This document shows, piece by piece, positions 9,912-46,257 of a DNA stretch of 46,561 nt. The stretch lies in NCBI GenBank assembly GCA_945861465.1, contig CAMAVB010000027.1, forward strand, positions 1 through 46,561, read 5' to 3'. Source of the DNA: Candidatus Kuenenia stuttgartensis. GTDB taxonomy: Bacteria; Planctomycetota; Planctomycetia; Planctomycetales; Planctomycetaceae. Positions within the stretch are counted from its first letter, which is position 1. The number at the start of each line of letters is the position of its first letter. The translations under genes and the position numbers were made by a program. Below the pieces are notes generated by a model. That model did no database searches, was not told the DNA's origin, and saw only the letters and a list, made by a program, of their open reading frames with translations.

Positions 9912-10130
9912 CGTTTTACCGCGTGCCCAGGGGACGGCGATTGTTCAATTTGAGATTTGAAATTTGAGATTTCGTATTTGAGATTTGAAACTTGAGATTT
10001 GAAATTTGAAATTTGAGATTTGAGATTTGAAATTTGAGATTTGAAATTTGAGATTTGAAATTTCGTATTTGAGATTTGAGATTTGAGATTTGAGATACAA
10101 ATCGCGGGGCCTTGCCCAAGCGGTTAAACG
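9912..10130. repeat. terminal-inverted-repeat element with heptanucleotide core, copy 1
   Basis: The left end CGTTTTACCGCGTGCCCA is matched at the right by the reverse complement of CGTTTAACCGCTTGGGCA. Between them are about 20 degenerate copies of a 7-bp unit, GAGATTT or GAAATTT, interrupted by TTCGTATT. Related copies lie at 39610-39695 (few core units) and 42186-42376 (pure core). Ends conserved while the core changes in unit number suggest a small mobile element carrying an unstable satellite. Confidence 0.8.
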
Positions 10131-10260
10131 ATTGTGCCATCCTCAACCACCTGAGGTACAGTCGCCCGATCCACGATGCCAGTACCGCCCCAATCCACGT
10201 CCGAGACCGTTCCGCGGATCTCATCTGCGGCGAACCGGGAATCAAGCACTGAAGGAGCAC

Positions 10261-10368
10261 TAAGGACCGTTCGAGAAATAATTGACCGCATCCTCCTCTC
10301 CCCTGGCAAGGGGAGAGCGTAGGGTGAGGGGTATAAAAAGGAGACAGTTATTTCTCGAACGGTCCTAA
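10261..10368. repeat. palindromic element with TAAGGACCGTTCGAG ends, intact copy
   Basis: The 108-bp element begins TAAGGACCGTTCGAGAAATA and ends with its complement ATTTCTCGAACGGTCCTA. An inner hairpin CTCTCCCCTGGCAAGGGGAG and the sequence GGTGAGGGG lie inside. Two further, interrupted copies lie near 45752-45809 and 46000-46257. It occupies the upstream region of the DUF1080 gene, nearly 200 bp from its start. Confidence 0.8.
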
Positions 10369-10560
10369 CCGGCGGTTTTCCCTGTGTTTTCACCACGCAT
10401 TAGCGATGGCCAGCGCGATTCCGGTCACTCAGTCGATAGAGCTGCACTTGCGTTCGGTTTTCGTCGCTGAAAAAATTCGTTACCGTACGCAATGCTTGTC
10501 ACTCAATGGACTTTGTCGAGCGTGTTTCCCACCTTTACCAACCTGCCTGGAGCCACTCAT

Positions 10561-11874
10561 ATGCTGTTCAAAGCGATTTTTCTTTCTTCGCTTCTGTTTG
10601 CGATTATTTTCAACCAGTGCAACGTCAGTCATGCTGCCGAAGTGCCGGAAGGTTTTCATGCCATTTTTAATGGAAAGAATCTGACGGGTTGGCACGGAAT
10701 GCCTCATTTCGATCCGCGTGATCTGGCAAAGATGACACCTGAAGATCGTGCGAAACAAATCGCGGAATGGACGGCGGATGCAAAACTGCACTGGTCCGTT
10801 GAAAACGAAGAACTGATCAATGACGGACATGGTGCCTATCTGGCGACGGACGGCGAATACACCGACTACGAATTGCTCATTGATTACAAGACGGTCCCGC
10901 TGGCGGATAGTGGAATCTATCTCAAAGCGAATCCACAGGTACAAATCTGGGACTCGACGGAAGAATCCAAGTTCAACCTTGGTGCAAACAAAGGCAGTGG
11001 CGGACTGTGGAACAACAGTGCGGGTGCCGAAGGCAAGGATCCTGCCGAACTCGCCGACAAGCCGTTCGGAGAATGGAACAGCTTCCGGATTCGTCAGATT
11101 GGTGCGCGGACAAGTGTCTGGCTGAACGGCAAGCACGTCGTGGACAACGCGATTATGGAGAGTTATTTTGATCGCGAGAATCCATTGTTCCGCAGTGGCC
11201 CGATCTGCCTGCAGACTCATGGTGGAGAAATTCGCTGGCGCAACATTTTTCTGCGGGAGATTCCGGCAGAAGAAGCCAATCAGATTCTGGCGGGGAGTCA
11301 CGCTGACGGGTTTGAATCCAGTTTCAACGGCACTGATCTCACCGGCTGGAGTGGCGCAGCGAACAACTATGAAGTCGTCGATGGAGCGATTCGTTGCAAA
11401 GCTGGTCACGGCGGCATTCTGCATACAACGGACGAATACGCCAACTTTGTCGTTCGCCTGGAATTCGCGGTTCCTCCGTCAGGCAACAATGGTCTGGCGA
11501 TTCGCACCGACGGCACTGGCGATCCGGCCTACGCCGCGATGTGCGAACTTCAGGTGCTGGATTCAGAACATCAGAACTATGCGAAACTTGATGCACGTCA
11601 ATACCACGGATCCGCGTACGGCATGGCGGCTGCAGAACGGGGTTTCCTGAGACCTGCGAACACTTGGAATTTCCAGGAAGTCACAGTGAATGGCAGTACG
11701 ATCAAAGTGGAACTGAATGGCAATCTCATTCTGAACACTGATCTTGCAAAGGTCACTGAATACATGGCAAATTCACCGCACCCCGGCAAGGTTCGAACCA
11801 GTGGATTCTTTGGATTCGCAGGTCACAACGATCCTGTCGCGTTCCGAAACATCAGCATCAAACGTCTGCCGTAA
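10561..11874 (+). CDS. secreted protein with two DUF1080 domains
   Basis: A protein of 437 residues with two DUF1080 (3-keto-disaccharide hydrolase-like, concanavalin-like fold) domains. The first spans about residues 27-240 and opens with GFHAIFNGKNLTGWHG. The second spans about 250-437 and opens with FESSFNGTDLTGWSG. Both carry the family pattern of a conserved NG.LTGW opening and an internal LNG or VELNG strand, with YELLIDYK near the start of the first. The frame is open from 10492, but the ATG at 10561 starts directly with a signal peptide (MLFKAIFLSSLLFAIIF, cleaved after SHA), so it was preferred. The protein is probably periplasmic or surface exposed and acts on carbohydrate. DUF1080 genes are strongly expanded in planctomycetes. 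The exact substrate is unknown. Confidence 0.9.
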   Translation: MLFKAIFLSSLLFAIIFNQCNVSHAAEVPEGFHAIFNGKNLTGWHGMPHFDPRDLAKMTPEDRAKQIAEWTADAKLHWSVENEELINDGHGAYLATDGEYTDYELLIDYKTVPLADSGIYLKANPQVQIWDSTEESKFNLGANKGSGGLWNNSAGAEGKDPAELADKPFGEWNSFRIRQIGARTSVWLNGKHVVDNAIMESYFDRENPLFRSGPICLQTHGGEIRWRNIFLREIPAEEANQILAGSHADGFESSFNGTDLTGWSGAANNYEVVDGAIRCKAGHGGILHTTDEYANFVVRLEFAVPPSGNNGLAIRTDGTGDPAYAAMCELQVLDSEHQNYAKLDARQYHGSAYGMAAAERGFLRPANTWNFQEVTVNGSTIKVELNGNLILNTDLAKVTEYMANSPHPGKVRTSGFFGFAGHNDPVAFRNISIKRLP

Positions 11875-11903
11875 AATGCGACGGACGTGAAAGTCCATCC
11901 TGG

Positions 11904-12008
11904 TAAGGACTGAGACAGAAATAAGTGGGGCACGATTCCATCGTGCCGGGCACGTTAAAAACGTGCCCCACGTCCGAAAGATGACCGTTGTTTCTTCGCC
12001 GGTCCTAA
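11904..12008. repeat. 105-bp palindromic element, family 1, copy A
   Basis: The ends are TAAGGACTGAGACAGAAATA and, in reverse complement, TTAGGACCGGCGAAGAAAC. The centre holds two hairpins: GGGGCACGATTCCATCGTGC and GGGCACGTTAAAAACGTGCCC. Nearly identical copies lie at 17694-17798 (inside the helicase gene) and 36995-37099 (inside the TPR-redoxin gene). This copy is intergenic, between the stop codons of the convergent DUF1080 and DUF1559 genes, where its hairpins could also end transcription. Confidence 0.88.
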
Positions 12009-12030
12009 AGTCGATTCCGGCGGAATCGAC

Positions 12031-12927
12031 CTACTCCAGATCGTATAATTCATCGCGTTTCGATGGATCTTCCAGGCTCCCGGCGGAGATGAAGCCAAGG
12101 CGTTTTTCTTCCATCAGCCTCACTTGTTCGTCTGACAAAAGATTGTCGCCGGGAATTTCTACGTACGTGGCATACGACATACTCTCGACATGCCCATCAA
12201 CAAATGCGACGTTTGCGGAATCCAGATGACGGAAGTGGACCGTGGGAAAATTCTGACTGGGCGGATCCAACAACCAGTTCTCTTCAAAACTGAAAGTCAG
12301 CGGAGAAAATCCAACGAGCTTCACTGCTGCGCTGTCGGCAAAGACGACAGTCCGCCCGGATTCGCGGACGTCGCGGAACTTGCGGCAGACTGGTCGAGGA
12401 CTAAACTGCGCGTCATAGCTCGGTGGCAACCATTCAATTCCGGCCGCGCGCGACAGATAGTGTCCGTTGTAGCCAAATCCGGTCGCTGGTTTTCCAAAAC
12501 GGACTGCATCCATTTGCGGCGGACCAAAGTTCGGACACTGAAATGATTCGTAGTTTGCTTCCATAAATGGGCTTAACGCACCGGTTGCAAAATCCAGCTG
12601 TTTCGTCGGGTCGGGCTCGTTGTAATTCACGGTTCCAAACCAGAATCGTGCGGAACCAGGACTGCCGGAGAACGTCTGCAAATAATTCAATCGTGCCTGA
12701 TCTTCGATCACGTATGGCACGAATGACTCCTGATAGACGTCTGCATAGTTGTGCATCGCCAGGACCAGTTGTTTCAGACTGTTTTTGCACTGAGTGCGAC
12801 GAGCTGCCTCTCGTGCCTGCTGAACTGCTGGGAGCAGCAGAGCCACAAGGATTGCAATGATCGCAATCACGACCAGTAATTCGATGAGCGTAAAGCCGCG
12901 AAGACGGCGACGAGTGTTTTCAGCCAC
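12031..12927 (-). CDS. DUF1559 family pseudopilin-like protein
   Basis: A protein of 298 residues with a type IV prepilin/pseudopilin N-terminus. The short basic leader ends RRRLRG and is followed by [20 protein letters not shown], with the mature Phe and Glu+5 in place, then the typical planctomycete segment [24 protein letters not shown]1559 body follows and ends with [17 protein letters not shown], the usual C-terminal motif. A TTG at 12951 extends the frame, but a GTG at 12927 has AGGAG nine bases upstream and gives a normal leader, so it was chosen. DUF1559 proteins are hugely expanded in planctomycetes and thought to be exported by type II/IV pilus-like machinery, with functions largely unknown. 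A cobalamin riboswitch lies about 200 bp upstream on the same strand, so this gene is likely repressed by B12. Confidence 0.92.
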
Positions 12928-13018
12928 GATGCACGACTCCTGAACGTACAAGGAATGCGGTCAGAGTCGCAGGCTGAAGACGGCTGGCATTTGTTGTAGT
13001 GCGACCGAACGCCGATGA

Positions 13019-14419: not shown

Positions 14420-14504
14420 GAATTTGTCTGAATGCCGCTGTTCTGGTGAGCTGCAAGGCGCTAGTCGCCGTTTTTGTAGGAGAAATACCGGCAGCGAGCG
14501 GTCA

Positions 14505-14612
14505 GTTGAATTAGTGGTTTTTATGGCTCATGGTCACACCAACCCGAAGCGCAGGCGAGGAATTCAGCCATTTCGGCCTCGCTGGCGCTTCGGGTTGGTA
14601 TAAAATCAACAC
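14505..14612. repeat. 108-bp palindromic element, copy 2
   Basis: Same length, ends (GTTGAATTAGTG and AAAATCAACAC) and central hairpin (ACCAACCCGAAGCGC to GCGCTTCGGGTTGGT) as the copy at 519-626, with scattered substitutions. It lies 85 bp after the argB stop. The hairpin could influence the transcript running from argB to argD. Confidence 0.8.
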
Positions 14613-14779
14613 CCCGCTAGCGCATTTGCGGCTCACAGTTCTGGAGGATCAGGACAGACGCCTTGGTGGCTGGCGGATCACATCGGAGAATGGGAATCTC
14701 AGTCGGCGGAGCGACTGAGCTACGGGTGAACTTCGCACAATCCGGCGTGTCAAATAAACTTCCGCAATCCAACTGAAAT

Positions 14780-16365: not shown

Positions 16366-19300
16366 TCACACGTCTGCGGTCGCCGTCAACAGGAGGGTTG
16401 ATTCCGTCGGCAGGAGTGAGAACTGACGAAGGCGGGTTAACGCAGTCGTGAGTTGCTCTTCACGGGCAGTTTCCATGATCTCTGCGTTCCCGCCACGCAG
16501 GACAGCGATCGGGAGACCGTCAAGGTACGCGATACGATTGCTCGCAATCCTCGGAACGCGATCGTGTTTTGACAGCACGCCCACGAGATTCAGCGGGTCG
16601 GCGGCCGTGATCAGAAGGAGTTCCTCCTGTGGCCCCTCGTCTCGAATTTGTCGCATCTTCTGAACCGTGTCGGCCAGAGCAAATTGTTCCCCGGCAACGC
16701 CCGTAATGAATCGACCGCCGCGAATTTCACCACGTGCTTCCAGTTTGCGAAATACCTGCAGCAGTTCAAACCACGCCGGCGCGCCGTCTTCGTTGGTCAA
16801 CAGATCGCGGAACACAATCCCCCAACGACGAAGAAGCTGCCACGCCCATTCTGCGTTGACATCGTGCCTGAGATTCTCCGAATTCCCTGCCTCATCGGAA
16901 GGCACCGGCTGCCGCGTGACCGACCACCGTCCGACCGCAGGCCGAACGACTCGTATACGTTCGGCTCGCCCACGATTCGATCGACGCGATGTCGTCGGCT
17001 TTTCAGCGACCAGTCCGCGCAGACCCGAAAATCCATCCGCCGTAATCAGGCCACGCGAAACAAGTTCGCCAAGCGCATCATCCAGATGGTCACGTAACAT
17101 GCGAGTTTCCACCTGCAGATCCGTCCCGAACGTGGCTCCGCTGGATGTCAGGATTTCCAGAATCTGGGTGCCGGGACTGCTGAGTCCTTCGACCTCAAGT
17201 GTTGGCGCGCGAGTGGCCAGCCACGGAAGGTCTTCGCGAAGAAAAATCGAAACCGGGGCGATGCGAGTCAAGCTTGCCATCGGACGCGATTTGTCCGGAT
17301 TCCGTGGCGGCGGAAAAACTCGTGCCCAGCCAATCTCACCCGTCAGACACAACTCATCCAGCCATTCGGATTGATATCCCGTGACTCGCAACGGAAGCAG
17401 ATCGCGTTCCCATGCCACGGATGGAATATCGAGCCCCTGCAGCTGGCCAATCACCTCAAACAGGCCATTCGATCCTTCACGGCGATGAGACTCGACGATA
17501 CCATGATGGCGAAACAAAAATCGCATAAACACATCGACTGAGACCGGTTCAATCTGCCGTCGAAGTCCGTCCATCGTCAGCCGATGAATGCGGGACAGTA
17601 ATCGGCGATGACACCATTCTGTGGTGCGGGCCATGTCGCCTGAATCACGAGTTCCACTGGAACGGTGTTCCGTGTCGCAGCCGATATGAGATCTAAGGAC
17701 CGGCGCAGAAATAACTATCGACTTCCGGACGTGGAGCACGTTTTTAACGTGCTCGGCACGATGGAATCGTGCCCCACTTATTTCTGTCTCAGTCCTAAGT
17801 GCAGATGCATCATCCGACATTTTTGCAGCAGGCGGCGTGAATCTGCCGCGCAACACGATGCCTTCGCCTTCCAGAGCCTCCAATGCGGCATCTGTTTGAC
17901 TCACCGTGATTCCGATCCGCGCTGCTGCGGCTTCCGTCGTCACCGGCCCGCAGATTTCCAGCAGCCCGCGGACCATGGCGACTCGGGCGTCTGTCGATTC
18001 CCAGTCGGTTTTCACGCCATGCGGCACAGTCACGCTGGGCGCGAGGATTGCATCCGGGAATGCCGCGACGACGGCGGGCGCGCGTTCCGTTGCCACCCAG
18101 GCTCGCACGAAACATACGATTTCTTCGGGCACAACCTGCGTTTCAGATGTGACCTGCGTTTCAGATGTGACCTGCGTTGCTCGGCCCTGGTTCACCAGTT
18201 CATGGAACCAGCCCGACCATTCAACTCCTTCATCGACCGGCAGCAGAATTCTGCTCAGCAACGTGTCGTGCAGTTCATCCGCATTCCGGATCAGCGGCTG
18301 AGCGTCCGCAACAACCTGAGCAATGGCCGTCGCGTCGAGTCGGCCAAGGTCGCGCACGTCATCGACCGACAGCGAACGTCGCGTCGTGACTGCCCGGGCT
18401 CGGCGTTCGGCGGCCTCACCGCCATCCAGAAACGCATACTGATTGGCATTCAATAATTCATAACTGAATGGCGACGGCTCGCGGGTATCGCGCGCGATGA
18501 ATTCGATTTCTCCACGTTCGACCGCTGCGAATACTTCTTTGAGTGCTTCCATGTCATGAGCTTCGTGCAGGCAGTCATCCATCGTTTGCTGAACCAGCGG
18601 ATCATCGGGAAGTTCGATATCTCCCACGACATTTTCCTGACAACCCGTCAGCTTCGGGAAGACGGCTGTGAGAAGATCTTCACTGCGAAACCGCTGTAGC
18701 GCGGGGGGAACTTTCTTTCCATTCCGGGAACGCGGGATCTGCAGCGCGCGAGTTGCGTTCCAGCGCCAGCGATTCAGAAAAATCGGGACGATCAGAATCG
18801 CCTGCTCAAACAGGGCCTGCACGTTGCGACAGTTGAGCATTGGAAACATGCTTTCCAGCGGAAAGCTGTGCTGCGGTCCCAGGGACAGCACAATCCCGTC
18901 GTCGTCAGCGTTTGCCTGAAGCTCAAAATCGAACGAACGACAGAATCGCTTTCGCATCGCCAGCCCCCAGGCGCGCGTGATCCGCGTGCCGAAAGGAGCG
19001 TGGATGACCAGCTGCATTCCGCCACTCTCGTCGAAGAATCGTTCAAACACGACTCGGCGGCATGTGGGCAGTAATCCAATCGCAGCCTTCTGTGCGGCAG
19101 CGTACTCAACTGTCTGCCGCGCCGCGTTCGGCGTCACACTGGCCTCTGCGATCAGCCAGTCCTGTGCCGCAGCCCGATCAGCGACGCGCTGCTCGAGTTC
19201 TTCACGCAGCTGTGAAACTGCTGCGGAAAGTTCGGCTGTCCGACCCGGCGCTTCACCCTGCCAGAAAGGAATCGAAGGAGGTGCACCGCCGGCATCAGAG

Positions 19301-28380: not shown

Positions 28381-31300
28381 ATGCTGATTCGGGAATATTT
28401 GAAGTCTCTGACCTGTCGTCGTAAATCCGATTCACGAAGACGTTTACAGCGTCCACACGGTCCCTCAGAACGTTTGGAATCGCGAGCACTCCTGACTGGG
28501 AATGTTCAAGTCTCGCTTTCGGGGGCGAATGCGCAACTGACAGGAGATACGGCGAATAACGAGATAGAAGTTGTCGTGGACAATGGTTCGGTCGTCGTTC
28601 GAGGGCTAAATGGGACGACCATCAATCAGGGTACGACGGCGTTCACTTTGGTGACGGGTGCGACGACGCTACAGGGCAGTTTGAATGCGTCGTTAGGCGG
28701 CGGCGACGACATTGTGACGATTCGCTCGGGGATTACATTCACAGGAAATGTGTCCCTGTCAGGTGATGGCGGTGCTGATACTTTGCAGGTTCTCACCGGA
28801 ACTTATCGAGGCAATTTGACGTTGAACGGTGGCAATGGAGCCAGTTCGTTCGTTGTTGATGGCGCGACGGTCAGCGGGAATCTTGGCGTGAGTGGCGCGG
28901 GAGCAACGCTGGCCAGCATCAGCAATTCGACACTGCGAGGCCGTCTGGACGTTCGGACCGGCGATGGTGCCGACAGCGTGGTGGTTCAAACTACGACAGT
29001 CGATGGCGTAACGGCCATCCATACGGGAAATGGCGACGACAATGTTGTGCTCCAGAATTCAACATTGCACGGGCGGCTGTGGATTGAAACCGGAGCTGGA
29101 AATGATGTGGTCTATGTGAATTCCAGCAGCGTGGCTAAGGCGGCTCGCCTTGCTCTTCGCCGTGGCAACGACACAGTGCAGGTACTTGGGAGCAGCAGTC
29201 TTGACAGACGATTGGTGATCGTTGGCGGTCGCGGAAGCGATGCGGCCAGTATCGCGGCAGACACGACAGCGCATCGTATCGTCAGGCGTGGCATCAATTC
29301 CAGTCAAGTGAATGCGGCTTTGATTTCATCCCGCATTACAGACCCGACAACCGGAGCGATTGCGCGTGCGAATGCACTCCTCACAGCAGCAGTGCCGATT
29401 TTGACGGCGAGCGTCAGTCCGGCGACGATTTCAGAAAATGCAGGCGCATCGGCTTCAACGCTGACTGTCACCCGCACGGGCTCGACAGCAGCAGCGCAGA
29501 TCGTGACGCTGACGTCATCCAATACGAACAAGGCGACGGTTCCCGCGACGGTCACAATTCTGGCGGGCCAGACCACAGCCACAGCGACGATCGCGGCGAT
29601 TGACAACGACACCGTCGATGGGGCCGCCACGGTCACGATCACCGCTTCAGCGACGGGATTTGCCAACGCGACGACCACACTGACGATCAACGACAATGAA
29701 ACGGCCCTGAGCCTCAGCGCCAGCCCTCCCACATTTTCGGAGAACGCAGGCGCATCCGCATCGACGCTGACTGTCACTCGGACAGGCCCGACGACTGCAG
29801 CGCAGATCGTGACACTGACTTCATCCAATACGAACAAGGCGACGGTTCCCGCGACGGTGACGATTCTGGCGGGTCAGACAACAGCAACAGCGACGATCGC
29901 CGCGATTGACAACCCGACCGTCGATGGTGCCGCCACGGTCACCATCACTGCTTCAGCGACGGGCTTCGCCAACGCGACAACCACGCTGACGGTCTTTGAT
30001 AATGAAACGGCCCTGAGCCTTAGCGCCAGCCCTCCCACATTTTCAGAGAACGCAGGCGCATCGGCATCGACACTGACTGTCACCCGCACGGGCTCGACCA
30101 CGGCAGCGCAGATCGTGACACTGACTTCATCCAATACGAACAAGGCGACGGTTCCCGCGACGGTGACAATTCTGGCGGGTCAGACCACAGCAACAGCGAC
30201 GATCGCGGCGATTGACAACGACGCCGTCGATGGGGCCACAACGGTCACGATTACCGCTTCAGCGACGGGATTCGCCAACGCGACGACCACACTGACGGTC
30301 AACGACAATGAAACAGCGCTGAGTCTGAGTGCCATCCCTGCCACATTTTCAGAGAATGCGGGCACAACGGCATCTACGCTGACGGTGACGCGCACAGGCC
30401 CGACGACAGCAGCGCAGATCGTGACGCTGACGTCATCCAATACAAGCAAGGCGACGGTTCCCGCGACGGTCACAATTCCTATCGGGCAGACGACAGCCAC
30501 AGCGACGATCGCCGCGATTGACAACGGTACCGTGGATGGTGCCACAACGGTCACGATTACTGCTTTAGCGACGGGATTTGCCAACGCGACGACCACGTTG
30601 ACGATCTTTGACAATGAAACGGCCCTGAGCCTTAGCGCCATCCCTGGCACATTTTCAGAGAATGCGGGCGCATCCGCATCAACACTGACTGTCACTCGCA
30701 CAGGTCCGACGACTGCGGCGCAGGTCGTGACACTGGCGTCATCGAATACCAGCAAGGCGACGGTTCCCGCGACGGTCACAATTCTCATCGGCCAGACCAC
30801 AGCCACTGCGGCGATTGCCGCGATTAACAACGATACGGTCGATGGTGCCACAACGGTCACGATTACCGCTTCAGCGACGGGATTCGCCAACGCGACAACC
30901 ACACTCACGGTCAACGACAATGATATCCCACTGACGGCAGTATTCACCGCCGCCGATGCGGTGCAGTCGAATGGCACAAAGATCACCCGCGATGCCACTT
31001 CGCAGGTCACTGGTACGACAGTTGCCGGAGCGACGATCACTGTGGACAGTAACGGAGATGGGCTGTTTGACAACGGAAGTGCCACCGCCGGAAACGACGG
31101 AAGTTACACGGTGGATGTGACACTGTTGCACACTGCAACAAATCATGGAGCAAACCGACTGGTCGTGAAATCGGTTTTAGGGACGAGTTCCGCAGAAACC
31201 GCCGTGAATGCACATCTGGCCGTCGGCACGGTAGTGCATTTTGCCACGAACCTGGGTGCGTATGATGTCGAACTTCTGAACACTGAGGCTCCATTGACCG

Positions 31301-32019
31301 TGGCGAATTTCCTGAGCTACGTGAATTCAGGAGCTTATCAGAACATGTTCGTCCATCGAACGAACGCCGGGAGTGCCAGGTTCATACAGGGCGGCGGATT
31401 CAAAGTGCTGAATGGTCAAGTCAGTTCTGTTGTGACAACGGCCCCGGTGACGAACGAATTCCTGCCGGCAAATTCCAATGTCAGCGGAACGCTCTCGATG
31501 GCCTTGCTGGGGAACGGTTCCGGTGGAAGTCAGCCAAACAGCGGAACAAGTCAGTGGTTCGTCAATACGACGAATAATGGAGCTGGGTTTGATCCGGGAC
31601 AGTATACGGTCTTTGGCCGTGTCATTGGCGACGGCGTTACAGTCGCCGCACAGATCAGCAATCTGACACAGCGAAATCTGAATACGCTGTATGCGTCGTC
31701 GGCACTTGGAGAAGTCCCGGTTAATGCATTTAACCCGGCGAACACGCCGATCACCGGAACTGCCGCGATCACCTTGAACAGTGCTGTGGTCACGGGAACC
31801 GGTACTTTGTTCACATCAGAGCTGGCAGTCGGGCAATCGATTGTGATCGGCAGCGGACGCGCCTACTTCGTCGCTTCGATTCAGTCAAACACATCGCTGA
31901 CTCTGACGACAGCTGCAGCGTCCACGGGCTCGACTCTGGCAGTCACAAAGAATGTGGTGCCAAACGACGCCGACTTCGTCGTCTTCAGCAGCATTGGCAA
32001 GATTCTGGATACGATCTAA
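28381..32019 (+). CDS. giant secreted protein: LEPR motif, Calx-beta-like repeats, cyclophilin domain
   Basis: A protein of 1212 residues. The N-terminus is basic and then reads PSERLESRALLTG, the LEPR-type motif seen at the start of large exported planctomycete proteins. Residues about 45-320 form beta-rich repeats (GGGDDIVTIRSG, GNGDDNVVLQNS) of beta-helix character. Residues about 339-848 are five near-identical 102-residue Calx-beta-like units (FSENAGASASTLTVTRTG to TTTLTVNDNE). Near residue 950 begins a cyclophilin-type peptidyl-prolyl isomerase domain (VVHFATNLGAYDVELL, FVHRTNAGSARFIQGGGF, QPNSGTSQWFVNT) that keeps the catalytic Arg and the Gln of the active site. Its tail is interrupted by a beta-rich segment (GTGTLFTSELAVGQSIVIG). 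Probably surface bound, perhaps calcium binding. Start at ATG 28381. Confidence 0.88.
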   Translation: MLIREYLKSLTCRRKSDSRRRLQRPHGPSERLESRALLTGNVQVSLSGANAQLTGDTANNEIEVVVDNGSVVVRGLNGTTINQGTTAFTLVTGATTLQGSLNASLGGGDDIVTIRSGITFTGNVSLSGDGGADTLQVLTGTYRGNLTLNGGNGASSFVVDGATVSGNLGVSGAGATLASISNSTLRGRLDVRTGDGADSVVVQTTTVDGVTAIHTGNGDDNVVLQNSTLHGRLWIETGAGNDVVYVNSSSVAKAARLALRRGNDTVQVLGSSSLDRRLVIVGGRGSDAASIAADTTAHRIVRRGINSSQVNAALISSRITDPTTGAIARANALLTAAVPILTASVSPATISENAGASASTLTVTRTGSTAAAQIVTLTSSNTNKATVPATVTILAGQTTATATIAAIDNDTVDGAATVTITASATGFANATTTLTINDNETALSLSASPPTFSENAGASASTLTVTRTGPTTAAQIVTLTSSNTNKATVPATVTILAGQTTATATIAAIDNPTVDGAATVTITASATGFANATTTLTVFDNETALSLSASPPTFSENAGASASTLTVTRTGSTTAAQIVTLTSSNTNKATVPATVTILAGQTTATATIAAIDNDAVDGATTVTITASATGFANATTTLTVNDNETALSLSAIPATFSENAGTTASTLTVTRTGPTTAAQIVTLTSSNTSKATVPATVTIPIGQTTATATIAAIDNGTVDGATTVTITALATGFANATTTLTIFDNETALSLSAIPGTFSENAGASASTLTVTRTGPTTAAQVVTLASSNTSKATVPATVTILIGQTTATAAIAAINNDTVDGATTVTITASATGFANATTTLTVNDNDIPLTAVFTAADAVQSNGTKITRDATSQVTGTTVAGATITVDSNGDGLFDNGSATAGNDGSYTVDVTLLHTATNHGANRLVVKSVLGTSSAETAVNAHLAVGTVVHFATNLGAYDVELLNTEAPLTVANFLSYVNSGAYQNMFVHRTNAGSARFIQGGGFKVLNGQVSSVVTTAPVTNEFLPANSNVSGTLSMALLGNGSGGSQPNSGTSQWFVNTTNNGAGFDPGQYTVFGRVIGDGVTVAAQISNLTQRNLNTLYASSALGEVPVNAFNPANTPITGTAAITLNSAVVTGTGTLFTSELAVGQSIVIGSGRAYFVASIQSNTSLTLTTAAASTGSTLAVTKNVVPNDADFVVFSSIGKILDTI
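29395..30924 (+). repeat. five tandem 306-bp units encoding Calx-beta-like domains
   Basis: Units begin at 29395, 29701, 30007, 30313 and 30619, with perfect 306-bp spacing (102 codons). Later units share long stretches of nearly identical DNA, such as ACGGCCCTGAGCCT near the unit start and GACGGTTCCCGCGACGGT inside. Similarity at the DNA level, not only the protein level, points to recent duplication or ongoing gene conversion among units. An antisense open frame through this region is a by-product of the repeats. Confidence 0.95.
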
Positions 32020-35587: not shown

Positions 35588-36904
35588 ATGATGCAAACCA
35601 CTCCGTTACAGACTGAATCATCCCGACGCAATTTTCTGGCAACATCCGCAGCAGGGGCTGTCACGTTAGCTGCCATTTCCAGGCCGCTGCATGCCGGGGC
35701 TTTCGCAGCAGGCAGCGATCTGTTGAAAGTGGGGCTCGTCGGTTGCGGTGGTCGAGGCCTCGGAGCCGCAGAACAGGCATTGAATGCTGATCCTGGTACT
35801 GAACTTGTCGCGATCGGCGACATTTTTGAAGATGCCGCTGAACGTGCGCGTCGTTCTCTGACACGGACGTACAACAAAGAGGGTGCCGCACCGCGCGTGA
35901 CGGTTTCCGATGACACATGCTACTCAGGCTTCGACAACTACCTGCGCGTGATTGAAAAGTCGGATGTGGTGCTGCTGGCCACAACACCTCATTTTCGCCC
36001 TCAGCATCTGCGTGCCGCTGTCGAAGCCGGCAAGCACGTGTTCTGCGAAAAGCCCGTCGCTGTCGATGCGCCTGGCGTACGCTCAGTGATGGAATCGTCG
36101 GAAATGGCAAAGGCCAAAGGACTAGTGCTCGTGTCCGGTCTGTGCTGGCGATATCACCCCGGCAAGTTGGCCACGTTTGAACAGATCAAAAACGGTGCAA
36201 TCGGTGACATCGTAACCATGCAGTGCTGTTACATGGCGGGAGGCGTCTGGGATCCGCGGCGCACGCGAGACAAATGCGACAGCGAAATGGAATACCAGAT
36301 TCGCAACTGGTACTACTACACATGGCTCTCGGGCGACTTCAATGTGGAACAGCACATCCACAGCCTGGATAAGATGATGTGGGCGATGAACGATCAGGTG
36401 CCGGAAACAATCAGTGGTTCCGGTGGTCGTCAGGTTCGCACCGATGCCAAATACGGCAATGTTTTTGATCACTTTGACATCGTCTATACATGGCCAAACG
36501 GAGTGAAGGCTTTCGCACGCTGCCGTCACTGGCCAAATTGCGAAAACGAAGTCGAGGACTATATCTTCGGCACAAAAGGCCGCGTCAATGTGATGAGTCA
36601 TAAGATCGAAGACTTTGCCGGCAATGTGATCTGGAAGTATGACGGCCCGGACGGCGACATGTACCAGATCGAACACAATGAACTCTTCGCCAGCATTCGC
36701 AGTGGTCAGCCAATCAACAACGGCGACTACATGTGCAAGAGCACATTGATGGCGATTGCCGGACGTATGGCGGGTTACACCGGTCAGCGACTGACCTGGG
36801 ACGCGGTGCTGAATTCCAAAGAAGACCTCAGCCCGAAAGCCTACGAATGGACCGACAATCCGGTGCCGCCGGTGGCGATCCCAGGAAAAACTCCGTTTGT
36901 CTGA
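35588..36904 (+). CDS. Gfo/Idh/MocA family oxidoreductase, Tat-exported
   Basis: An NAD(P)-dependent oxidoreductase of 438 residues. The twin-arginine signal SRRNFLATSAAGAVTLAA lies at residues about 12-29 and suggests export in folded, cofactor-bound form. The Rossmann motif VGLVGCGGRGLGAAEQAL follows. The family's EKP motif is in VFCEKPVAVDAPGV, with the catalytic Lys in place. The C-terminal region, about residues 160-430, is the usual substrate domain and includes NWYYYTWLSGDFNVEQHIHS. Such exported sugar dehydrogenases are very common in planctomycetes, and the substrate is not predictable. The frame is open to 35498, but the ATG at 35588 places the Tat motif properly, with AAGG seven bases upstream. 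Confidence 0.92.
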   Translation: MMQTTPLQTESSRRNFLATSAAGAVTLAAISRPLHAGAFAAGSDLLKVGLVGCGGRGLGAAEQALNADPGTELVAIGDIFEDAAERARRSLTRTYNKEGAAPRVTVSDDTCYSGFDNYLRVIEKSDVVLLATTPHFRPQHLRAAVEAGKHVFCEKPVAVDAPGVRSVMESSEMAKAKGLVLVSGLCWRYHPGKLATFEQIKNGAIGDIVTMQCCYMAGGVWDPRRTRDKCDSEMEYQIRNWYYYTWLSGDFNVEQHIHSLDKMMWAMNDQVPETISGSGGRQVRTDAKYGNVFDHFDIVYTWPNGVKAFARCRHWPNCENEVEDYIFGTKGRVNVMSHKIEDFAGNVIWKYDGPDGDMYQIEHNELFASIRSGQPINNGDYMCKSTLMAIAGRMAGYTGQRLTWDAVLNSKEDLSPKAYEWTDNPVPPVAIPGKTPFV

Positions 36905-36954
36905 TTCGAAATTCCACTTGGCGTCGTCGAACAATGACTGAATAGGTTGTGATC

Positions 36955-39498
36955 ATGCTTCACTGCATTGCTTTCCGGTGTTCGCGCTGGCACGTGAGGA
37001 CCGGCGTAGAAACAACTGTCGTATTCCGGACGTGGGGCACGTTTTTAACGTGTCCGGCACGATGGAATCGTGCCCCACTTATTTCTGTCTCAGTCCTTAC
37101 GTCCATCGCTTTAATTGCGATGAATTTGATCGGATCACAACGTGCTGCCGCTTCCCAGGAAGCGGCACTTCCCGTTGTCGCGGTCGAGAAGCCGACGGAG
37201 CCCACCCCCGCCGAAGCGACGCCTTCTGATGAATTACCGAAAGAAGGACATTCCTTCCACGGCGAAGTCTTTAACGAAGGACCGCGTCAGTCGGCCTATC
37301 TGATGGGCGGCTGCGGTGTTGTAAAATTCCCGGTGACGACGGCCAACGCCGAAGCCCGGAAGTTCATTGAGCAGGGTGTGGCTCAGTTGCATGGGTTCTG
37401 GTACTTCGAATCAGAACGCTCCTTTCGCCAGGCCGCCATGCTTGACCCGGACTGCGCGACGGCCTACTGGGGTATGGCAATGTCAAACCGCAGTAATGAC
37501 AAACGGGCCAGGGGCTTCATCGCCGAAGCCGTAAAGCGTAAGGACAAAGTGGAAAAGCGGGAACGGACGCTGATCGAGGCATTTGACCGGTTTATCAACG
37601 CCAAGACCGAAAACGACGAACAGAAAAAGCAGCGGGCTGACAAGTACGTCAACGATCTGGAAGACATCCTGCTCGAATTCCCGGACGACCTTGAGACGAA
37701 GGCGTTTCTGTGCGAGTTCTTCTGGTCCGGAAAACGCGACGGCCTGCACATGGCATCCAATCTGAGCATTGATGCCATGATCCAGCAGGTGCTGGATGTT
37801 GAACCTCTGCATCCGGCGCATCATTATCGGATTCATCTGTGGGACAGCAAGAAGCCTGAACTGGCGTTGAAATCTTCCGCACTGGGTGGACTGGCGTCGC
37901 CGTCAATCGCTCACATGTGGCACATGCCGGGGCATATCTATTCGAAACTGCACCGCTATCACGACGCCGTGTATCAGCAGGAAGCGTCGGCTCGCGTAGA
38001 CCATTTTCACATGATGCATGATCGTGTCCTCCCGGATCAGATCCACAACTTCGCGCACAATAATGAATGGTGCATTCGCAACATGATCTCGATCGGGCGT
38101 GCCCATGATGCAGAGGCGTTCGCGCGAAACATGCTGAGCCTGCCGCGTCATCCAAAATACAATTCGCTCGGCAAATCCGGCAGCTTCAAGTACGGACGCG
38201 ATCGGCTGATCAACGTGCTGCTGAGTTTCGAAATGTACGAAACGCTTGCTGCCTTGAGCGGCACGTCGTGGCTGGAAGATACCGGTGATGCTGACGAAGA
38301 TCTGCGTCGCGATCGAGCCATCGGTTCAGCGTTCGCCGCGACTGGCAACGATCCGAACGCCGCTGTTTACCGGGACCGCCTGCAGAAACTTATGGATGAA
38401 GAGAAACAAAAGCAAACGACAGCTGTCGCAGAAGCGGAGTCGAAAGCCCGTGAGGCAAAGTCTGACGACAAGGCGATTGAAAAGGCTAAGCAGGACGCTG
38501 AAAACAAGTTTAAGGGAAAGATCGAGGGCCTCGAAAAGGCTACGTTGGAAATCGACGCTCGTGTCGCAGCACGGAAGGGGGAGCACGAAAAAGCACTGGA
38601 TCTGTTGACCAAAGCCGGTGTCTCCAGCGACGAACTGATTGCTGCGATGATCCGAGCCGGAAAGTCCGAAGACGCCGTGACGAAAGCGGCTGAGAATGTG
38701 AAATCCAATCCCGGCGAAGTTCGTGCACTCGGCAGTCAGATTGAAGCGTTTTATGCGGCAGGAAAGAAAGATGAGTCAAAGGCGGCGTTTGAACAGCTTC
38801 GGAAGATTTCCTCCACGATCGATCTCGACGTGGCACCGATGATGCGACTGGCACCGATCGCTGCAGAATTCGGCTATACGGCGGATTGGCGACTGCCGCA
38901 TGAGGTTCCTGCCGACATCGGTACTCGACCGAATCTGGATTCGCTGGGACCGTTTCGCTGGTCGCCACGCGATGCCCCGGAATGGGCGCTGCCTGATCCC
39001 GATGGGAAGACTCGTTCGCTGGGCGACTATCATGGCCGTCCGGTGATGGTGGTGTTCTATCTGGGCTACGGATGTCTGCATTGTGCGGAGCAGCTGCAGG
39101 CGATCGCGAAGAATCATGCTGCCATTCGCGCTGCGGGATTTGAAGTGATCGCGGTGAGCACCGATAAGCAGGAAGACCTGAAACGTGCGTGTGAAAATCT
39201 GGAAACGGTACTTCCATTTCCGCTCGTGGCCGATCCGGAAATGGCGATTTTCCGCGAGTACCGCTGCTACGACGACTTTGAAAAAGCTGCGCTGCATGGT
39301 ACGTTCGTGATTGATGGGCAAGGCAAAATCCGCTGGCAGGACATCAGTTACGAGCCGTTTATGGACACAGATTTTCTGATCAAGGAAGGCCAGCGACTGA
39401 TTTCGTTCGATCATTTGTATCCCGCATCGAGCCTGCTGCAAGCGACCACGACTGGAGGCCATTCTGCTCCACAGGAGTTGAGAGTATCCGATTTCTAA
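36955..39498 (+). CDS. exported TPR protein with C-terminal redoxin (AhpC/TSA-like) domain
   Basis: A protein of 847 residues. A hydrophobic stretch (LTSIALIAMNLIG) ending near AAASQEA is the core of a signal peptide. A region of about 450 residues with TPR-like helices follows (ATAYWGMAMSNRSNDKRA and further pairs), then a charged helical linker rich in Lys, Glu and Ala around residues 480-550. From about residue 670 a thioredoxin-like domain reads APEWALPDPDGKTRSLGDYH, then VVFYLGYGCLHCAEQLQAI with a CxxC pair, and HGTFVIDGQGKIRW. It probably acts in the periplasm as a thiol oxidoreductase or peroxiredoxin on proteins bound by the repeats (inference). Oddity: codons about 14-48, ahead of the signal core, are a 105-bp palindromic element, so the signal n-region is unusually long. 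The start is uncertain (GTG 36949 or ATG 36955). Confidence 0.82.
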   Translation: MLHCIAFRCSRWHVRTGVETTVVFRTWGTFLTCPARWNRAPLISVSVLTSIALIAMNLIGSQRAAASQEAALPVVAVEKPTEPTPAEATPSDELPKEGHSFHGEVFNEGPRQSAYLMGGCGVVKFPVTTANAEARKFIEQGVAQLHGFWYFESERSFRQAAMLDPDCATAYWGMAMSNRSNDKRARGFIAEAVKRKDKVEKRERTLIEAFDRFINAKTENDEQKKQRADKYVNDLEDILLEFPDDLETKAFLCEFFWSGKRDGLHMASNLSIDAMIQQVLDVEPLHPAHHYRIHLWDSKKPELALKSSALGGLASPSIAHMWHMPGHIYSKLHRYHDAVYQQEASARVDHFHMMHDRVLPDQIHNFAHNNEWCIRNMISIGRAHDAEAFARNMLSLPRHPKYNSLGKSGSFKYGRDRLINVLLSFEMYETLAALSGTSWLEDTGDADEDLRRDRAIGSAFAATGNDPNAAVYRDRLQKLMDEEKQKQTTAVAEAESKAREAKSDDKAIEKAKQDAENKFKGKIEGLEKATLEIDARVAARKGEHEKALDLLTKAGVSSDELIAAMIRAGKSEDAVTKAAENVKSNPGEVRALGSQIEAFYAAGKKDESKAAFEQLRKISSTIDLDVAPMMRLAPIAAEFGYTADWRLPHEVPADIGTRPNLDSLGPFRWSPRDAPEWALPDPDGKTRSLGDYHGRPVMVVFYLGYGCLHCAEQLQAIAKNHAAIRAAGFEVIAVSTDKQEDLKRACENLETVLPFPLVADPEMAIFREYRCYDDFEKAALHGTFVIDGQGKIRWQDISYEPFMDTDFLIKEGQRLISFDHLYPASSLLQATTTGGHSAPQELRVSDF
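36995..37099. repeat. 105-bp palindromic element, family 1, copy C, inside the TPR-redoxin gene
   Basis: Ends TGAGGACCGGCGTAGAAAC and TTATTTCTGTCTCAGTCCTT. The centre GGCACGTTTTTAACGTGTCC and GGCACGATGGAATCGTGCC is nearly identical to copies A and B. It is read through in frame by the gene at 36955, in the opposite orientation to the way copy B is read by the helicase gene. The encoded residues include TTVVFRTWGTFLTCPARWNR. Confidence 0.9.
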
Positions 39499-42185: not shown

Positions 42186-42376
42186 CGTTAAACCACGTGC
42201 CCATCGGGCCGCGATTGTTCTATTTCGTATTTGAGATTTGAGATTTGAGATTTGAGATTTGAGATTTGAGATTTGAGATTTGAGATTTGAGATTTGAGAT
42301 TTGAGATTTGAGATTTGAGATTTGAGATTTGAGATTTGAAATACTGGGCGCGGAGCGATGCCCACGCGGGTAAACG
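42186..42376. repeat. terminal-inverted-repeat element with pure heptanucleotide core, copy 3
   Basis: Ends CGTTAAACCACGTGCCCA and, in reverse complement, CGTTTACCCGCGTGGGCA. The core from 42229 to 42340 is fifteen perfect ATTTGAG units plus a final ATTTGAA, far purer than in copies 1 and 2. Because 7 is not a multiple of 3, the minus-strand translation is a seven-residue repeat, which produces misleading open frames. It lies between the SGNH gene and the livF-like gene. Confidence 0.92.
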
Positions 42377-42485
42377 AACAGATTCTTCGAGTACCGGGAT
42401 ATTTTGCCACACCTCATGCGAGACTTGATGCATTGCACATTTGTGCGTCCAGCATTCATCAGCTAGATTACTGTTCGAGAAAACT

Positions 42486-45608: not shown

Positions 45609-45751
45609 CAACGCCGTTAAGGATTTATCGTCGTGTTTTCACCGAGTTTCTCGAAGTCCCTTCTCCCCCTGGTAAGGGGGCGAAGGTGGCCGAAGGCCGG
45701 ATGAGGGGGTTATTCGCTGGATCTGACGCTACCAAATACTTAACGGCGTTG
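45609..45751. repeat. 143-bp inverted-repeat element, copy 1
   Basis: Ends CAACGCCGTTAAGGATTTA and, in reverse complement, CAACGCCGTTAAGTATTTGG. An inner hairpin CTCCCCCTGGTAAGGGGG and GGCCGAAGGCCGG lie inside. The copy at 46070-46212 has the same length and is inverted relative to it. Flanks differ between copies: left GGTGAGGGG and right CCCCTCACC here. Confidence 0.88.
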
Positions 45752-45809
45752 CCCCTCACCCTTACAGGGGAGAGGAGGATGCGGTCAATTATTTCTCGAA
45801 CGGTCCTAA
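45752..45809. repeat. half copy of the TAAGGACCGTTCGAG palindromic element
   Basis: The sequence CCCCTCACCCTTACAGGGG to ATTTCTCGAACGGTCCTA is one arm of the element found intact at 10261-10368, in reverse orientation. It stops where the 143-bp element begins, and the other arm of this copy is not present on the left. Confidence 0.8.
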
Positions 45810-45999: not shown

Positions 46000-46257
46000 T
46001 AAGGACCGTTCGTGAAATACTTGACCGCATCCTCCTCTCCCCTTTAAGGGGAGAGGGCAGGGTGAGGGGCAACGCCGTTAAGTATTTGATAGCGTTAGAT
46101 CCAGCGAATAACCCCCTCATCCGGCCTTCGGCCACCTTCTCCCCCTTACCAGGGGGAGAAGGGACTTCGAGAAACTCGGTGAAAACACGACGATAAATCC
46201 TTAACGGCGTTGGGTGAGGGGTATAAAAAGAGACAGTTATTTCTCGAGCGGTCCTTA
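46000..46257. repeat. TAAGGACCGTTCGAG palindromic element interrupted by a nested element
   Basis: The outer ends TAAGGACCGTTCGTGAAATA and ATTTCTCGAGCGGTCCTTA match the intact 108-bp copy at 10261-10368. The two halves (46000-46069 and 46213-46257) are separated by the 143-bp element. The sequence GGTGAGGGG, single in the intact copy, appears on both sides of that element. Confidence 0.9.
46070..46212. repeat. 143-bp inverted-repeat element, copy 2, nested, with 9-bp target duplication
   Basis: Begins CAACGCCGTTAAGTATTTG and ends AATCCTTAACGGCGTTG. It is flanked by perfect direct repeats GGTGAGGGG at 46061-46069 and 46213-46221, as expected from a transposition that duplicates 9 bp. No coding capacity, so it would need a transposase from elsewhere. 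Confidence 0.92.

Follow-up and report, generated by a model that had tools for sequence, protein, structure and literature searches.

The putative signal peptide of a redoxin (AhpC/TSA) protein encoded in the window (the whole 46,561-nt stretch of DNA analyzed, contig C27 of the source genome G000, an 8.22-Mb draft in 474 contigs) is interrupted in frame by one copy of a 99-bp repeat. We consider it highly likely that this feature represents a tolerated in-frame copy of a non-autonomous MITE that was moved in trans, and that the protein is still exported. According to the mechanism we propose, the element would be a high-copy MITE with 18-bp terminal inverted repeats, a two-hairpin core and a TNA (mostly TAA/TTA) target that is duplicated over 3 bp; a transposase acting in trans on ends of the type GGACYG(N5)GAAATAA would have moved it; insertion would have added 99 + 3 = 102 bp, or 34 stop-free codons, absent at this site in the closest relatives; and the insert would be carried as a tolerated passenger of a still-exported protein, such insertions surviving in signal peptides and interdomain linkers. 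The relevant features of the window are as follows:

36949..39498, + strand: redoxin (AhpC/TSA) gene with the in-frame element; PF00578 at 675-796; likely start ATG 36955
36955..37155, + strand: extended signal peptide, end approximate, by eye and hydropathy
36995..36997, + strand: left 3-bp flank TGA, interpreted as a TAA/TTA target duplication that has diverged
36998..37096, + strand: 99-bp MITE-like element GGACC...GTCC, matching the family consensus at 95/99 bases
36998..37015, + strand: left terminal inverted repeat GGACCGGCGTAGAAACAA (family consensus GGACCGGCGCAGAAATAA)
37032..37078, + strand: internal two-hairpin core, GTGGGGCACG-7-CGTGTCCGGCACG-ATGGAAT-CGTGCCCCAC
37079..37096, - strand: right terminal inverted repeat GGACTGAGACAGAAATAA, as read on the - strand
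37097..37099, + strand: right 3-bp flank TTA, from the flank analysis
17697..17795, + strand: second copy read in frame, within the gene for the Lhr-type helicase, flanks TAA/TAA
16366-20952, - strand: Lhr-type helicase gene holding the second copy
11907..12005, - strand: third copy, between ORFs 10492-11874 and 12031-12951, flanks TTA/TTA

The boundaries of the redoxin-gene copy were set by flank analysis of the element copies. In a repeat search of the window, positions 36997-37097 paired directly with 17696-17796 (92%) and positions 36992-37100 paired in inverted orientation with 11903-12011 (93%). An earlier reading of the sequence alone (the sequence-only reading) had given the unit as 105 bp, a figure that holds for the element together with its two 3-bp flanks but not for the element itself. 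The terminal inverted repeats are alike at 14/18 positions when the consensus GGACCGGCGCAGAAATAA is compared with GGACTGAGACAGAAATAA, and the element region treated as single-stranded DNA folds more favorably than most shuffled versions (z score -2.5), with 4/200 shuffles being equally good.

A search of G000 with the core pattern, tolerating up to 3 mismatches, yielded 281 forward and 279 reverse matches, and the reversed control yielded 0 and 0, so that chance does not account for the repeat. The core is near-palindromic, such that a typical copy matches its own other strand with one mismatch; as a typical copy is therefore hit on both strands, these matches correspond to about 280 copies rather than 560. 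From fetched stretches of the genome we extracted 162 distinct copies, of which 143 measure exactly 99 bp (median identity to the consensus 96%, n = 143) and the remainder 80-146 bp, the right end of the long copies L002, L016 and L296 having apparently been misplaced by the extraction script. Some long copies, such as L082 and L089, carry the internal hairpin unit in tandem, with extracted lengths of up to 146 bp. Identical 3-bp flanks border 102/162 copies (49 TAA, 48 TTA, 5 others), as opposed to 0, 4 and 6 copies with equal flanks in three shifted registers; the others, among them the redoxin-gene copy, have non-identical flanks. Hallmarks of a MITE that are found in this family are terminal inverted repeats, a fixed 3-bp target-site duplication, and a short, high-copy unit that is too small for a transposase gene. 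REP/RAYT repeats, by definition, have no terminal inverted repeats with a target-site duplication. An assignment of the element to this type of palindromic repeat, instead of to a TIR/TSD transposon, would be compatible with its nested GGCACG palindromes, with its high copy number and with the presence in G000 of a Y1_Tnp (RAYT-like) gene that itself holds a copy (L302), but it conflicts with the inverted termini, the equal flanks of the 102 copies, the fixed length of 99 bp and an exact 3-bp overlap at the element-free DUF1501 site described below, and we attach only a minimal probability to it.

Element-free orthologues document the insertion at several loci; they are available for four of the genes with in-frame copies, at 76-94% protein identity. 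The two closest orthologues of the redoxin gene (L020/L049 and L021/L050; 82-87% protein identity) are devoid of the insert. The L020/L049 protein, 87% identical by tblastn, starts MHCCFICRWHVIAIALVALHSSVVQRAANAQ, and the window protein has the N-terminus MLHCIAFRCSRWHV-(RTGVETTVVFRTWGTFLTCPARWNRAPLISVSVL)-TSIALIAMNLIGSQRAAASQ, in which the bracketed part is the insert, so that an ancestral start-RWHV/IAIALVAL has turned into start-RWHV-[34 aa]-TSIALIAM. At the DNA level, L049 reads CACG-TAA-TAGCCATCGC and the window CACG-TGA-[99 bp]-TTA-CGTCCATCGC, with the register set manually and the right-hand alignment to the orthologue being weak (69.7%); the element-free site accordingly shows TAA where the window copy has TGA/TTA. 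The clearest element-free site is that of a DUF1501 gene, where the orthologue L376 can be aligned on either side of the element (81% and 83%), the two alignments overlapping by exactly 3 bp, TAA. The DUF1501 protein, which has a twin-arginine-like leader, begins MSI-[34]-NTRRHW in G000 versus MSI-NTRRHW in the congener. In the Lhr gene, the copy occupies a variable linker; orthologue L203 (G014) lacks the element, and its linker is shorter by approximately the element length. The DUF4129 orthologue L378 (G011) is without the element and 34 residues shorter over the aligned span. The proposal that a member of a repeat family had inserted in frame into the signal peptide is borne out by these orthologues and by the copy number in G000; the comparison with orthologues that the sequence-only reading had suggested came out in its favor as well, neither of the two closest ones showing a repeat-like extension of the n-region.

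The frame from GTG 36949 or ATG 36955 is open through the element to 39498 (849 aa). In-frame starts upstream of the element are a GTG, an ATG and a GTG at 16, 14 and 1 codons before it, and the ATG is conserved in L049, where the stretch from ATG to insertion site shows a 9-bp difference, equal to three codons. The upstream ORF, encoding a GFO/IDH/MocA protein, ends at 36904 and therefore leaves little room for another start. Translation from any start ahead of the hydrophobic core, be it ATG 36955, GTG 36949 or the GTG immediately preceding the element, passes through the element, and the copy itself offers no ATG, GTG or TTG in the reading frame, which speaks against the earlier suggestion that it might supply a new start. 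Counted from the ATG, the signal peptide comprises 14 codons up to the element and the 34 insert codons, followed by what remains of the hydrophobic core and by an Ala-rich end. Inspection by eye and hydropathy place the element where the n-region meets the hydrophobic core of a Sec-like signal peptide: it directly precedes TSIALIAMNLIG, as had been noted from the sequence, and about 27 insert residues lie before the core and the last seven (LISVSVL) form its first part. The sequence-only reading had predicted a lengthening by about 35 residues, as against the 34 added, and had overlooked the contribution of the insert to the core. The best 15-residue hydrophobic window, LISVSVLTSIALIAM, has a hydropathy of 2.38 and is about half element-derived.

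We infer that the protein is still exported, because positively charged RWNRAP followed by the strong hydrophobic stretch LISVSVLTSIALIAM has been retained; its signal peptide would then be about 34 residues longer, and the insert would probably be removed together with it. The opposite outcome, in which the long n-region or initiation at ATG 37120 impairs export, so that the redoxin stays in the cytoplasm or anchored in the membrane while its gene heads for loss or a new role, has to be considered since about 41 residues now stand ahead of the core compared with about 11 in L049, and since past the element an ATG and a TTG occur inside the hydrophobic core (codons +41 and +43 from the first element codon), initiation at this ATG leaving no full core. 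However, loss of export is not predicted because the hydrophobic core persists, with RWNR in front of it; moreover, the 799 codons downstream of the element are free of stops, and five other genes were found by eye to carry an in-frame copy ahead of the hydrophobic core of their leader. Impaired export is thus improbable in our estimation.

Since 99 + 3 = 102 bp amounts to 34 codons, the insertion preserves phase. Among 78 copies of 99 bp, frames +2, -2 and +1 are open in 69, 76 and 43, and frames +0, -0 and -1 in 1, 5 and 5, respectively; in the consensus, one frame per strand is open. The redoxin and Lhr genes use frames +2 and -2, the Lhr gene on the - strand reading the other strand of its copy, in agreement with what had been noticed from the sequence, namely an orientation opposite to the copy in the helicase and at least two open frames. 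A census that required 80 codons of stop-free, coding-like sequence on either side retained 8/131 copies, and 8/8 could be read across the element without a stop (7 in -2, 1 in +2). If all six frames were equally likely, the share expected to be open would be 199/468, and 8/8 would arise about once in a thousand; given that re-paired flanks as the null produced a mean of 2.7 matches and a maximum of 8, this result is supporting but not conclusive. With 60 codons, 6 copies qualified and all were open (null mean 3.4, maximum 8), and with 40 codons 5 copies qualified, 4 open and 1 with a stop (null mean 5.6, not exceeded). A stricter first census (threshold 5, both flanks) retained 1/141 copies and was judged too strict.

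Copies occur in frame in several unrelated genes, as is characteristic of protein-embedded repeats of the RPE type: redoxin, Lhr, DUF1501, DUF4129, DUF6702, PSCyt, DUF1549/DUF1553, PQQ and others, with several further in-frame readings devoid of domain support. When the spanning frames of 147 distinct copies (those flanked by 500 bp or more in both directions) were inspected by eye, eight copies were judged to lie within signal peptides, although some of these readings may be spurious. Six of these are ahead of the hydrophobic core, in the genes for redoxin, DUF6702 (L209), PSCyt (L296), PQQ (L314), DUF1549/DUF1553 (L337) and DUF1501 (L144), an alternative start being possible for the last four (GTG inside the element or TTG/ATG shortly after); two are within or just past it, in DUF4129 (L304) and in the L299 protein, whose squalene-hopene-cyclase-like matches are near the cut-off. 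Where a protein has Pfam matches, the element falls outside the best-scoring part of each family listed. The copy in L302 (contig C202) is in frame near the N-terminus of the Y1_Tnp gene mentioned above, and it constitutes a doubtful domain case, the match starting only at profile position 30.

In a more far-reaching view, a codon-neutral cassette (34 codons from 99 + 3 bp, with a single open frame on each strand) recurrently remodels signal peptides in one lineage: it would extend n-regions and, when inserted in one of its orientations, provide a basic-plus-hydrophobic segment ready for use, so that transposition would rewire the export of many proteins. We regard this view as unlikely. The idea that the inserts are selected for, as a mobile codon-neutral cassette tuning signal peptides, could invoke their repeated presence in signal peptides and the fact that the element in frame +2 ends basic-then-hydrophobic (RWNRAPLISVSVL or close variants), but a comparison of the share of synonymous changes between in-frame and other copies gave no indication of purifying selection on the inserted peptide: 12/83 versus 87/501 in frame -2 (p=0.64; the in-frame set, n = 18, was picked by locus name and takes in a few extra copies from the same loci) and 7/18 versus 124/530 in frame +2 (p=0.16). 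As the synonymous share is not higher in in-frame copies, there is no sign of a selected inserted sequence, and the locations are accounted for by tolerance, leaving selection a slim chance. The simplest explanation, and to us the best one, is that n-regions and linkers tolerate the insert.

Regarding the source of mobility, the ends GGACYG(N5)GAAATAA are common to a sister family of about 100 bp (GGACCGTTCGAGAAATAA), so that movement in trans by a shared transposase is likely. Sister palindromic elements are also present in the window at 10261-10368, 45789-45809 and 46000-46257, with ends GGACCGTTCGAGAAATAA or close variants, a CTCTCCCC core and TNA flanks as in the family studied here. IS5-family elements and related MITEs have a 3-bp TNA duplication and inverted repeats starting with GG, and the present family resembles such MITEs in its TNA duplication and GG-starting ends; it differs in that no transposase with these ends was encountered among 15 PF01609 loci of G000. 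These loci, at least three of which are situated at contig ends, were scanned for element ends, with up to 3 mismatches allowed, and for inverted repeats bordered by the same 3 bp on both sides. None has element ends at both transposase borders, the end-like matches in L118, L123 and L129 sitting away from these borders, and none has equal 3-bp flanks among its best 8 inverted repeats. The TNA target agrees with the IS5 family, but ends shared with an IS of this family were not found among the PF01609 loci. PF13586, the other family searched, gave one sub-threshold match in G000. ORFs beside lone ends (L173, L174, L177, L184, L187, L189, L191 and L396-L403), inspected by eye, included no recognizable transposase.

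A DNA search found the element in none of 17 other genomes of the same genus, and among 58 relatives short partial matches were confined to two (G023, G051). As for the end pattern, 11 of 170 genomes of the order have a match, G000 included; leaving aside G000 and the congener G014 (13 matches), each of them has one or two, which approximates chance level by our own estimate. The congener G011 has one end match. In G159, a member of another genus of the same family, a lone left end identical to the first 24 consensus bases (L401:1504-1527) adjoins a different palindromic core and is again readable as RTGAEITV in a long frame. Rfam yielded no match to window positions 36900-37200 at E values up to 1, the element was unmatched in plasmids and phages, and an exact 33-base segment of it had 0 matches in viral contigs, where the end pattern occurred in 77 stretches with one match each, which we took as chance.

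In-frame palindromic repeats have precedents. Excerpts of a review (PMC10969869) describe the Rickettsia palindromic elements (Ogata et al. 2000, 2002) as short palindromic repeats, many of which sit in frame within unrelated protein genes; for R. conorii, 44 integrations (about 150 bp; ten families) are given. The present family is likewise short and palindromic and interrupts unrelated genes without breaking their reading frame, which stays open across the element, but it has defined terminal inverted repeats and a 3-bp TNA duplication resulting in a 34-codon unit, about 280 copies as opposed to 44, and a planctomycete host. The ERIC-type units RU-1, RU-2 and RU-3, according to the excerpted text of Delihas 2007 (PMC2759123), are MITE-like and translated within genes, one of them in a predicted signal peptide, where RU-2 covers protein residues 1-30. 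Our family shares with them the translation of a MITE-like repeat within genes; it belongs to a different host phylum, the planctomycete element follows a native start, and element-free orthologues are known. Literature searches retrieved no publication joining MITE, in-frame insertion, signal peptide and bacteria, and none joining Planctomycet-, MITE, transposon and target site duplication; the available portion of PMC6461901 contains no word starting with 'MITE'. The family and its recurrence in planctomycete signal peptides therefore appear new in literature and database searches, although the kind is already known from in-frame RPE and ERIC units: this is a new family of a known kind, and the redoxin gene is a clear but not unprecedented example of mobile DNA becoming protein sequence. 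Its value lies in providing a clean natural experiment, in which an insertion absent in close relatives has converted mobile DNA into protein sequence at a known position and one genome offers several parallel cases. It makes directly testable how much n-region a signal peptide can take, and it illustrates how a transposon can survive within genes when element and duplication together add up to a multiple of three and each strand has one open frame.

The window contains further repeats. Two 14-bp tandem-repeat arrays (9919-10159 and 42186-42405) are up to 85% alike between the sites, and a 154-nt inverted repeat (45609-45762 and 46059-46212; 98% complementary) has its arms 296 nt apart. A 120-nt direct repeat at 512-631 and 14498-14617 (92% identical) was listed separately from the family studied here. 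Finally, ORF 28381-32019, encoding a large protein with a cyclophilin domain, includes five tandem 306-bp (102-codon) repeats at 29409-30933 that are 83-91% identical to the first.
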